DNA from: Polymorphum gilvum SL003B-26A1
GTDB lineage: Bacteria > Pseudomonadota > Alphaproteobacteria > Rhizobiales > Stappiaceae
Length of the DNA stretch: 64,000 bases
Reading direction: 5' to 3'
NCBI RefSeq assembly: GCF_000192745.1
Contig: NC_015259.1
Location: forward strand, 1,565,001-1,629,000
Under the pieces are notes generated by a model. The model was not told the DNA's origin. It saw nothing but the letters and a program-made list of their open reading frames with translations, and made no database searches. Position numbers and translations under genes: made by a program. Positions 21,615 to 38,433 of this stretch are shown one piece after another (the stretch's first letter is position 1; every line of letters begins with the position of its first letter).

Positions 21615-21845
21615 TGAGGCAATCCGTGTCGAAAGCGGACCCGTTTTGCCTGCATCGGTCCGAATGACTGCACTCCGAAGATGGGGTGCCGTTAGGAAAT
21701 CTCCTGATCTCTGAGCGGATATTGCAGTGCACAAGAAAATTTTGGTTGCGCATCTTGGTAATTGAACTTTCTGACCAATTCGATGACGGTCTTTGACGAA
21801 GTCGACTTCCGCTTATCTGAAGAACGACTGGGAGGAAAATTCAAA

Positions 21846-23188
21846 ATGATGCGCTTAAACGGCGCCGCAATGCTTTGCGGTGTGGCAATCATATTTTCTG
21901 TTTCGTATGATGACGCAGCGGCAGGCGGCTTTGCGCTTCGCGAGCAGAGCAGCTACTACCAGGGGATGTCGTTTGCTGGAAATGCGACTTCCGGCCCGTC
22001 GATCTCGTCGGTGTTCTGGAATCCGGCGACCATCACCGGAGCCGGCGACGGCTTCACCGTCGAGGCGCACAATTCCCTGATCCTTCCACAGGCGAAGATG
22101 AATGGGACGTTCACGCGGGCGGGGGGGCGCCGGCCTGGGTGACCTCGAGCACGGCGGCGAGCGGCGAGATGGCGTCGGATGCCTTCATTCCGGCGAGCTA
22201 CACCGCCTACAAGTTCAGCGATTCCCTGTTCTTCGGCCTGGCCGTGAATGCGCCCTACGGATTGGCCACCAAGCCCGACATCGACTGGGCGGCGAAGTGG
22301 TACGGCCGGTCGTCGGAAGTATTCTCGATCAACGTCAACCCGATGGTCGGCTACAAGATCAACGACATGATCTCGGTCGGCGTCGGTCTGCAGGTACAGT
22401 ATTTCCAGGTGCGCCTGAAATCGGCGTATCCGCTGTCGCCGACGGCGAGCACCGCCGAGGTCAAGGGCGACGACATCGGCTTCGGCTTCAATGCCGGCGT
22501 CACCTTCAAGCCGATCGAAGGCACGGAAATCGGCCTCGGCTTCCGCTCGGCGGTGTCACATGAGCTCAATGGGCAGTACATCCTGCCGTCGGGCTTCCTG
22601 CCCGGCCCGATCGCCTTCGGCGCGACCTCGACCGACATCAAGGCAAAGCTGATGACGCCGGAAATGGTGACGCTGTCGATCTCCCAGCGCGTGAGCGAGG
22701 CGTTCCGCGTCGCGGGCACCGTGGAATGGACGAACTGGAGCCGGCTCGGCACGATCCATACCCGTCCGACCGGGGCGACTGCGCTGCCGGTGTCCGTCCT
22801 CGGCACGCCGGACCTGAAATTCAACTACGATGACGGCTGGTTCTTCGCCCTCGGCGGCGAATACGACTGGAACGACAAGCTGACGCTGCGCGCCGGCGTT
22901 GCCTACGAGCTGTCGCCGATCGACCTCGACATCCGCTCCACGCGCCTGCCGGACAACGATCGCCTGTGGCTGTCCGCAGGCCTCAGCTACACGGTCAGGG
23001 ATAACCTGTCCTTCGACCTCGGCTACACCCACATCATCCCCAAGAGCACGAAAGTGCGGATCGTCCCGGGTCACCAGGACTACAACGCCTCGATCGGCAC
23101 CTATGTGTCGAACGTGTCGAGCCAGGTCGATATCTTCACCGCGTCGCTGCGCTATCGCTGGGGCGGATCCCACAGATCGGCGGAATGA
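21846..23188 (+). pseudogene. FadL/OmpP1-type outer membrane protein gene, frameshifted at a G7 tract
   Basis: The start at 21846 follows GGGAGGAAAA. A signal peptide leads to GGFALREQSSYYQGMSFAGN, the N-terminal plug signature of FadL-type channels for hydrophobic compounds. The frame stops at 22142. The rest of the barrel continues in the -1 frame to 23188 and ends with a C-terminal strand rich in aromatics (IFTASLRYRWGG). The shift falls in a run of seven Gs (22121-22127); adding one G restores one continuous reading frame of about 447 codons. Nothing else is decayed. This may be a sequencing error, a recent mutation or slip-based switching. Confidence 0.85.
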
Positions 23189-23237
23189 GCGGGGTTGCGG
23201 ACGCGCCGGGCGCTGCCGCCGGACCGCGGTTCGAAAG

Positions 23238-23259
23238 AGGCCGGCGCGTGCGCCGGCCT
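23238..23259 (+). terminator. hairpin, left flank of repeat B
   Basis: The arms AGGCCGGCGC and GCGCCGGCCT enclose GT, about 50 bases after the porin stop codon. With one base on either side it forms a 24-bp sequence repeated with a single difference at 23447-23470. Confidence 0.6.
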
Positions 23260-23269
23260 TCAGCTTGTT

Positions 23270-23437
23270 GACAAACTTGCGGCCTCTCCAGTGTCATTCC
23301 GGCCAAGCGTGAGCTGCAGCCGGAACCGGAGAGCCGCAGTGTCGATGGTCTCGATGAAGGAGATCGAGAGGGCCCCGGCTCACCGATCCCGCATCTGCGC
23401 TTCGCTGCGTGCGGGATGACGCCTTTGGAGGTTTGTC
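23270..23437 (+). repeat. dispersed repeat element, copy B
   Basis: This 168-bp copy has clear terminal inverted repeats, GACAAAC at 23270-23276 and GTTTGTC at 23431-23437. Inside, GTCATTCCG (23293-23301) can pair with CGGGATGAC (23412-23420) to form an outer stem. The enclosed part contains GAGCTGCAGCCGGAACCGG and the CCCGCA..TGCGGG hairpin. It lies between convergent genes and encodes nothing credible. Confidence 0.88.
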
Positions 23438-23447
23438 GGCAGTCAGG

Positions 23448-23469
23448 AGGCCGGCGCGGGCGCCGGCCT
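23448..23469 (-). terminator. hairpin, right flank of repeat B
   Basis: The arms AGGCCGGCGC and GCGCCGGCCT enclose GG. Its sequence differs by one base from the hairpin on the other side of the repeat. It is 23 bp from the SDR stop codon and could terminate that gene. Confidence 0.6.
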
Positions 23470-23492
23470 TTGCCGTTCGGTCGTCGCGGCGT

Positions 23493-24272
23493 TCAGAACG
23501 CGCCCGGGAACAGGCCGCCGTCGATGAGGATGTTCTGGCCGGTGATGTAGCCGGCCTGCTGCGAGCACAGGAAGGCACAGACCTCGCCGAATTCCTCCGC
23601 GGTGCCGAAGCGGCGCGCCGGGATCTCGTCCGCCTGCGCCTGACGTACCGCATCGACGCTGCATCCGGACAGCGAGGCGGTGCGCTCGAAGCCGCCGCGC
23701 AGCCGGTCGGTATCCATCTTACCGGGCAGCAGGTTGTTGATGGTCACGTTGCGGTGGGCGATGGTGCGGCAGACCCCTGCGAGGAAGGCGGTCAGGCCGG
23801 CGCGCGCGCCACTGGACAGGTCGAGCCCCTCGATCGGCATCTTTACCGACATCGAGGTGATGTTGACGATGCGGCCGAAGCCCCGCTCCGTCATGCCGTC
23901 GACCACCGCCTGGATCAGTTCGATCGGCGTCACCATGTTCTGGACGACACCGTCGAGCATCGCCTGCCGATCGAGCTCGCGGAAGTCCTTGCGCGGCGGA
24001 CCGCCGTTGTTGTTGACCAGGATGTCGGGAGCCGGGCAGGCAGCGATGAGGGCAGCTCGGCCGTCGGGGGTCGAGATGTCGGCGGCCACCGCGTCGACGC
24101 GCACGCCGTAGGCGGCGCGGATCTCCGCGGCGGTCCGTTCCAGGGTGTTCGGATCGCGCCCGTTGAGGACGAGGTCGCATCCGGCCGCCGCGAGCGACAA
24201 GGCGCAGCCGCGCCCGAGGCCGCGGCTGGAGGCGCAGACGATGGCCTTGCGCCCGGAAATACCCAAATCCAT
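23493..24272 (-). CDS. SDR-family oxidoreductase with non-canonical active site
   Basis: This 259-residue Rossmann protein resembles ketoacyl-ACP reductase-like SDRs. The cofactor loop reads ASSRGLGRG instead of TGxxxGxG. NNNGG and the serine of ITSMS are kept, but the usual YxxxK is replaced: the aligned tyrosine is serine and the lysine is arginine (SSGAR). A known BKR-like SDR subgroup shares these losses, so the protein is probably a stable variant rather than a broken gene. The start at 24272 follows GGAAAGGA. Activity and substrate are unknown. Confidence 0.82.
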   Translation of the reverse strand: MDLGISGRKAIVCASSRGLGRGCALSLAAAGCDLVLNGRDPNTLERTAAEIRAAYGVRVDAVAADISTPDGRAALIAACPAPDILVNNNGGPPRKDFRELDRQAMLDGVVQNMVTPIELIQAVVDGMTERGFGRIVNITSMSVKMPIEGLDLSSGARAGLTAFLAGVCRTIAHRNVTINNLLPGKMDTDRLRGGFERTASLSGCSVDAVRQAQADEIPARRFGTAEEFGEVCAFLCSQQAGYITGQNILIDGGLFPGAF

Positions 24273-29122: not shown

Positions 29123-29287
29123 GACAAACTTGCAGCCTCTCCGCTGTCATTCCGGCCAAGCGGAGCGCGAGCCGGAACCGGAGAGCCACGGCGTCAACCA
29201 TCTCAACGAAGGAGACCGAGAGGCCCCCGGCTCACCGATCCGCATCTGCGCTTCGCTGCGTGCGGGATGACGCGTTTGGAGGTCGTC
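29123..29287 (+). repeat. dispersed repeat element, copy C
   Basis: This 165-bp copy begins with GACAAAC (29123-29129). It carries GTCATTCCGGCCAAGCG, GAGCCGGAACCGGAGAGCC, CCCCCGGCTCACCGATCC and GTGCGGGATGACGCG, as in copy B. The right inverted end is damaged (GGTCGTC instead of GTTTGTC). It lies between convergent genes. Confidence 0.87.
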
Positions 29288-29296
29288 GGCAGCCTC

Positions 29297-38199: not shown

Positions 38200-38225
38200 G
38201 GAGGTTCGGCATCTCCGCCGGGTCC
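38200..38225 (+). terminator. degenerate hairpin, left flank of repeat D
   Basis: GGAGG..CGGCATCTCCGCCGGG..CC resembles the strong hairpin at 38406-38433 but has lost some pairing. It follows the lipoprotein stop by 35 bp. Confidence 0.4.
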
Positions 38226-38232
38226 GACTGCG

Positions 38233-38398
38233 GACAAACCTCCAAACGCGCATCCCGCACGCAGCGAAGCGCAGATGCGGGATCGGTGAGTCGGGGGCCT
38301 ATCGGCCTCCTTCATTGAGATGGTTGACACCGCGGCTCTCCGGTTCCGGCTCGTGCTCCGCTTGGCCGGAATGACACCGGAGAGGCTGTAAGTTCATC
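38233..38398 (-). repeat. dispersed repeat element, copy D (inverted)
   Basis: This 166-bp copy lies in the opposite orientation to A, B and C. Read on the plus strand it begins GACAAACCTCC and contains CATCCCGCACGCAGCGAAG, GGATCGGTGAG, GGCTCTCCGGTTCCGGCTCG and GGCCGGAATGACACCGG. The far end is a degenerate GTTCATC. It lies between the Mla operon and gpr, which are convergent. Confidence 0.85.
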
Positions 38399-38405
38399 AA
38401 CAAGC

Positions 38406-38433
38406 GGAGGCCCGGCGCATCCGCCGGGCCTCC
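38406..38433. terminator. strong hairpin terminator, right flank of repeat D
   Basis: A perfect 12-bp stem, GGAGGCCCGGCG with CGCCGGGCCTCC, encloses CATC and is followed by TTT. It is 26 bp from the gpr stop codon and could serve the convergent genes on both sides. Confidence 0.7.

Follow-up and report, generated by a model that had tools for sequence, protein, structure and literature searches.

The 186-bp segment lying between two nearly identical hairpins in the genome of Polymorphum gilvum SL003B-26A1 (positions 23261–23446 of the window, i.e., the whole 64,000-nucleotide stretch of contig NC_015259.1 analysed here) is very probably a MITE derived from the IS1182 family, which a clade of stem-loop-recognising DDE transposases would have moved in trans, duplicating the hairpin on insertion. 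Insertion sequences of the IS1182 family with matching ends are found in relatives, where they are almost always bracketed by whole duplicated hairpins, with duplication lengths that depend on the hairpin and single hairpins at the corresponding empty sites.

The element and its hairpins in Polymorphum gilvum

Direct reading confirmed that the 24-bp sequences at 23237–23260 (GAGGCCGGCGCGTGCGCCGGCCTT) and 23447–23470 (GAGGCCGGCGCGGGCGCCGGCCTT) differ by a single mismatch, located beside the dyad in the loop, as an earlier note on this DNA had described; the repeat between them, put at 168 bp in that note, actually spans 186 bp. Pairing and duplication tests identify these sequences as the left and right hairpin copies of a duplicated terminator (neither assigned to a strand). 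The region as a whole (23230–23480) folds with a z-score of -7.4 relative to shuffles, and the locus has an end-anchored duplication score of 20.0, compared with a maximum of 5.0 over 687 mismatched pairings. Immediately outside the left hairpin, AAA at 23234–23236 forms a U-run for minus-strand transcripts, and a T-run (23469–23471) is located at the outer end of the right hairpin. The hairpins are faced by the 3' end of a FadL/OmpP1-type outer-membrane protein gene (porin; 21762–23188, plus strand, PF03349 in both of its pieces) and by a convergent short-chain dehydrogenase gene (23493–24272, minus strand, PF13561/PF00106 and orthologues). The reading frame of the porin is broken, its N-terminal part being in a different frame with a switch near 22116–22144, and the proteins of two relatives (L084 and L087) align over both pieces. 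A reading as structured RNA was rejected, as no Rfam match was obtained at 23237–23470 with gathering scores. The sole match within the whole window was a TPP riboswitch (RF00059, 17617–17727, plus strand, 69.6 bits).

The segment at 23261–23446 (plus strand, 62% GC) is multicopy and too small for a transposase gene, and we annotate it as a non-autonomous mobile element, a MITE of IS1182 type. Its boundaries are supported by sister copies whose termini abut hairpins. The left terminal inverted repeat (23261–23276, plus strand) reads CAGCTTGTTGACAAAC, and the right one (23431–23446, minus strand) reads CTGACTGCCGACAAAC on the minus strand; these ends are a few bases different from the family consensus and IS1182-type terminal repeat, CAGACTGCTGACAAAC. 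Further copies within the window are found at 242–448 (L010, plus strand, with hairpin flanks), at 29123–29292 (L021, plus strand, with flanks GTGCCGCAGGGGATGCGGCGCC and GCGCCGCAGGGGATGCAGCGCC), and at 38216–38432 (L005, minus strand, degraded on one side). An inner palindrome of the element (ATCCCGCATCTGCGCTTCGCTGCGTGCGGGATGACG type, query positions 137–185) also matches alone in other genera of the family, at loci without obvious terminal repeats of the window-element type.

A search of the P. gilvum genome (4,718,963 bases, two contigs) with the 234-bp segment as query yielded at least 40 matches (scores were computed for 40 of the 104 candidates from a first look), the weaker of which are partial. 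The best 30 of these 40 were fetched with their flanks, leaving out the other 10, and, when oriented alike, they represent one element with a consensus of about 184 bp and ends of the types CAGC[G/T]TG[T/C][T/C]GACA and ..GTCTG. A search for the terminal-repeat pattern gave 24 matches in this genome versus 0 for the reversed control. Hairpins adjoin the ends directly, often with zero bases between, and strong hairpins (score ≥7 within 4 nt, a threshold passed by 7% of 900 random pieces) are present on the left of 20 of the 30 copies, on the right of 19, and on both sides of 13. They vary between loci and agree within a locus, and in well-preserved copies (e.g., L004, L019, and L020) the loops agree too. 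Summed over the 30 copies, the similarity of left and right flanks within loci was 382, versus 271 for the best of 20,000 between-locus re-pairings, which bears out both the suspicion that independent terminators would not match so closely and the expectation that, genome-wide, the hairpins flanking one copy would resemble each other far more closely than hairpins of different loci.

At the level of individual loci, a copy's own partner flank ranked first in 16 of 30 cases, and the end-anchored score exceeded the maximum of 687 mismatched pairings in 13. A duplication above the null maximum is no longer seen in the other 17 of the 30 copies; together, these 17 have a within-locus similarity of 146 compared with a permutation mean of 88 and a maximum of 142 (20,000 permutations). 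The correlation expected between element divergence and hairpin similarity was not found among copies in this genome (rho 0.08, P = 0.67). Base composition around the 30 copies shows A as the commonest base, or nearly so, about 22–31 nt to the left of the element, and T likewise about 20–30 nt to the right, as would be seen after the splitting of a bidirectional terminator. At two loci (L013 and L212), the paired hairpins have a common outer stem and a different loop or inner stem, a pattern that would fit ongoing selection on both hairpins as terminators.

IS1182-type insertion sequences with matching ends

One end of P. gilvum copy L019 reads CAGACTGCTGACAAAC, which is the end of a 1.5-kb insertion sequence. 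The terminal-repeat 15-mer was present in six of eight relatives searched, with one control match overall, and bounds MITEs in genus g3 as well as a contig-breaking repeat in genome G013. In the latter, a hairpin abuts the repeat end at all 14 contig ends read by eye, and six contig-end pairs carry matching hairpins in the orientation expected for the two sides of one insertion. Two transposase halves encoded by this repeat score 220 and 235 bits against the IS1182 model NF033551, both below a cut-off (270) that applies to the whole protein, and carry DDE domains (PF13751, PF01609, and PF05598). A family-wide search detected IS1182 transposases at E < 1e-60 in 13 of 87 genomes. Nine insertion sequence copies of 1,528–1,530 bp in genomes G068, G069, G090, and G091 have the ends CAGACTGCTGACAAAC and GTTTGTCAGCAGTCTG with at most two mismatches, and terminal inverted repeats in 9/9 cases. 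Scores against NF033551 (cut-off 270) were 455–473 bits for seven of them (L221, L222, L223, L226, L234, L239, and L241) and 267.5 bits, over only part of the model, for L242 and L243, the genes of which are therefore probably broken. Judged by sequence comparison, the ends of the window element match the terminal repeats of this IS1182-family insertion sequence, and the element looks like a miniature relative of the family; the earlier note's view that no element of this kind had been described is not supported in this respect.

All nine insertion sequence copies are bracketed by whole hairpins of 18–32 bp, with duplications above the null maximum in 9/9. Terminal repeats also located 26 loci in the g3 genomes G014, G020, and G024; seven lacked an element pair, and 19 MITEs were used. 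Duplication was above the null maximum in 16 of these 19, a count for which the best-matching flanks were chosen where several end pairs were possible, which favours duplications. By the criterion applied to P. gilvum, strong hairpins lie near both ends of 15 of the 19 MITEs and seven of the nine insertion sequence copies. Eight of the nine insertion sequence copies and nine of the 19 MITEs have the dyad at the centre of the duplication, and in the remainder the offset is at most three bases.

Searches of wider scope extended these results. IS1182 matches with E-values up to 1e-115 were obtained in nine of 385 genomes of the class, and three copies each in G403 and G168 have the same type of ends, with matching hairpins in five of the six. 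One insertion sequence copy in G168 (L306, the same place as L321) lies between two unlike hairpins and is perhaps a product of recombination between copies. A search of 398 genomes of the phylum with one transposase gave matches (E up to 1e-80) in six genomes, two of which (G505 and G704) are outside the class. Among the 16 loci recovered, three repeat G168 places already counted and were left out; the other 13 copies (G519, G545, G168, G743, G505, and G704) all have duplicated hairpins of 17–26 bp (two mismatches in one of them, none in the other 12), the end pair with the best-matching flanks again having been taken where several were possible. In total, the hairpin is duplicated in 27 of 28 distinct full-length copies from eleven genomes and at least two classes, and the length of the duplication (17–32 bp) tracks that of the hairpin. 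At one locus (L334), a further terminal-repeat copy lies immediately beyond the hairpin on the right of the insertion sequence, which suggests two insertions into a single terminator.

A tree built from 20 IS1182 transposases places all seven rows with a duplicator label on one branch (support 100/99). Its G168 row is L306, a copy with unlike hairpins of its own; it received this label because duplication is seen in two other copies from G168 (L315 and L318). The rows labelled "no group" include four (L309, L311, L313, and L316) whose ends were not found, and one short transposase row (L229) dropped out. As a difference from other members of the IS1182 family, six copies that have other terminal repeats and come from bacteria of the same family (L224, L225, L227, L229, L230, and L236) show no hairpin duplication by eye.

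Within the P. gilvum genome, we found neither an autonomous partner or longer element with these ends, leading us to reject an autonomous parent there, nor a transposase of the duplicating clade (the relatives that align at all have 26% identity). Hence, the source of mobilisation is absent from this genome or has been lost. From the ends of the window copy and the duplication around it, we infer that such a transposase mobilised it in trans.

Empty sites and orthologous loci

For six of the nine insertion sequence copies, the two flanks were joined and used as queries against 45 genomes of the genus. The 30 loci returned were aligned to all nine sites, which gave 18 alignments across a junction; one of these, L244, represents the filled site and was dropped from the count, and L281–L284 were left out. 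The resulting 17 aligned empty sites contain a single hairpin and no insert (one for the L221 site, nine for L222, six for L241, and one for L243), as do, by eye, seven more L241 orthologues fetched for split matches in that they have a single hairpin. Since the genomes concerned share ancestry, these 24 empty sites are not independent events; L265 and L267, for example, are identical over the junction. As an example of an empty site, the relative lacking the L221 insertion has the identical 20-bp hairpin once, and comparison of AGGCGCCGGAACCGGCGCCT in this empty site (L247) with L221 indicates that the same hairpin is already there without insertion. Extra sequence in L241 orthologues of seven genomes was considered as independent insertions into the hairpin and rejected, as it adjoins a single hairpin instead.

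For the window locus, the dehydrogenase retrieved 80 loci from named genomes, and the convergent porin is kept in 28, which we treated as syntenic orthologues. The gap between the two genes contains one hairpin above threshold in 18 of these, none in two, two in six, three in one, and four in one. No matching hairpin pair is present in 27 of the 28, and the complete element is absent from all 28. The sole orthologue with a matching pair (L085, Roseibium aggregatum IAM 12614) has it on either side of a different insert, rich in repeats and about 430 bp long; beyond the second hairpin lies one stretch resembling an element end. Sequence of the inner palindrome is common to the element and to L083 and L085 (local scores 17 and 30, respectively; ≤13 for the other 26). 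In L083 (Stappia indica), repeat sequence lies beside one such terminator, and L084 (S. taiwanensis) is without it. As no genome of the same genus was found, the orthologues all come from other genera and none represents an exact empty site for the window copy. Single-hairpin empty sites and the 27 orthologues without a matching pair support insertion with duplication of the whole hairpin. Together with the flank statistics, they decide the refuting conditions set by the earlier note in favour of its proposal that a small element inserted into the porin terminator.

Alternative readings, proposed mechanism and known systems

Independent origin of the two terminators, one for each convergent gene, would explain their likeness through GC-rich stems and leave the repeat between them to chance or preference. 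GGCC-rich stems are indeed common, and several old copies have a common outer stem and not a common loop. Such an origin is nevertheless highly improbable: loops agree in well-preserved copies, re-pairings between loci fall far short of the observed similarity, aligned empty sites with one hairpin refute it for the well-preserved copies, and almost every window-locus orthologue is without a matching pair. It is extremely improbable that the hairpins form part of the element and move along with it, since, although they adjoin the element ends, they vary from locus to locus, and their presence at empty sites of relatives (L247 versus L221) refutes the idea.

Long duplications with no known target (in the passages of PMC10132070 on the group) are also what recommends a fixed-stagger transposase of another family, the IS1202 type with duplications of 16–28 bp, as the mover of the element. 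A flank search of four IS1202/ISNCY-type copies (L165–L168), however, gave no direct repeat of ≥12 bp, window-type terminal repeats are absent among the inverted repeats listed there, and it is the IS1182-type copies that carry them; we consider this reading exceedingly unlikely, and an IS1202-type parent was rejected on account of those four copies. Tn7-like TGT..ACA ends for the element were rejected as well, as the full-length insertion sequence has CAG..CTG ends abutting the hairpins. It is conceivable, if rather unlikely, that insertion duplicated the hairpin and that the pairs were afterwards shaped by gene conversion or by recombination among copies rather than by simple decay. The unlike hairpins of L306 and the lack of correlation of hairpin similarity with element divergence speak for such a history, but it is unneeded for most insertion sequence copies, whose duplications are exact or nearly so.

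We therefore favour trans-mobilisation of an IS1182-derived MITE with duplication of the hairpin on insertion. Under the mechanism proposed here, a DDE transposase of the clade would recognise stem-loops, not a sequence, and its target would be a bidirectional terminator between convergent genes. Each strand would be joined to a 3' end of the element at the 5' foot of the palindrome, extruded as a cruciform, the stagger of the cut would equal the hairpin length, and gap filling would leave a whole hairpin on either side. We infer this cleavage geometry; with integration taking place at both 5' feet of a terminator in its extruded form, the hairpin, rather than the enzyme, would dictate how long the duplication is. 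After insertion, the outward T-run would stay with the right hairpin and the outward A-run with the left, so that neither gene should be left without a terminator, and the insertion may be nearly harmless.

For IS1182, ISfinder is reported to list direct repeats of 0–60 bp. The copies described here share with this family the NF033551 transposase and terminal inverted repeats, and the targeting of palindromes or stem-loops reported for some of its members is seen in the 27 of 28 copies between matching hairpins. Members of the family are overrepresented between convergent genes (PMC9208149). IS1272 and TnSha1 likewise combine an IS1182-family transposase with stem-loop or terminator targets that lack a primary sequence consensus (PMC5678879, PMC4923244), and their target size varies with the stem-loop (21–38 bp in one set; PMC5678879). 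However, IS1272 wholly or partly removes the hairpin, without duplication in the accounts given there (PMC5678879, PMC4923244), whereas the clade here duplicates it, with a whole hairpin on both sides of the insert and a single one in empty sites. Both outcomes are sketched in Fig. 13 of PMC5678879, where pathway a is the hairpin loss of IS1272 and pathway b is hairpin duplication; our data, with a duplication centred on or close to the dyad and a length that follows the hairpin, fit pathway b.

Like bacterial MITEs, the window element is shorter than 500 bp and has terminal inverted repeats, and flanking direct repeats are present in younger copies (PMC10969869). It differs in that bacterial MITEs are typically AT-rich (PMC10969869) and in that here an entire stem-loop, of varying length, forms the direct repeat. 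The IS1202 group shares unusually long duplications (16–28 bp) but has another transposase, TGT..ACA ends, and no target found according to the relevant passages of PMC10132070. A demonstrated duplication of a whole terminator was not found in the parts of the open-licence literature that were available, and earlier publication elsewhere is possible. The earlier note's claim of novelty is supported in part. A new class of terminator-targeting element is not supported, since the ends belong to the known IS1182 family, whose stem-loop-targeting elements are of a known kind; a clade that duplicates whole terminators, together with its miniature derivatives, looks new.

DDE transposases usually generate duplications of nearly fixed length; here, the length of the duplication tracks the secondary structure of the target. 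It is likely, on balance, that transposases of a widespread IS1182 clade, seen here in two or more classes of a single phylum, read the structure of their target and that terminator-sparing insertion made terminators safe harbours for MITEs, since a bidirectional terminator split into two working ones would allow such elements to accumulate. The results support the outcome sketched for the IS1182 family, explain a class of intergenic repeats located between paired terminators, and provide a system for direct tests of hairpin recognition by a transposase.
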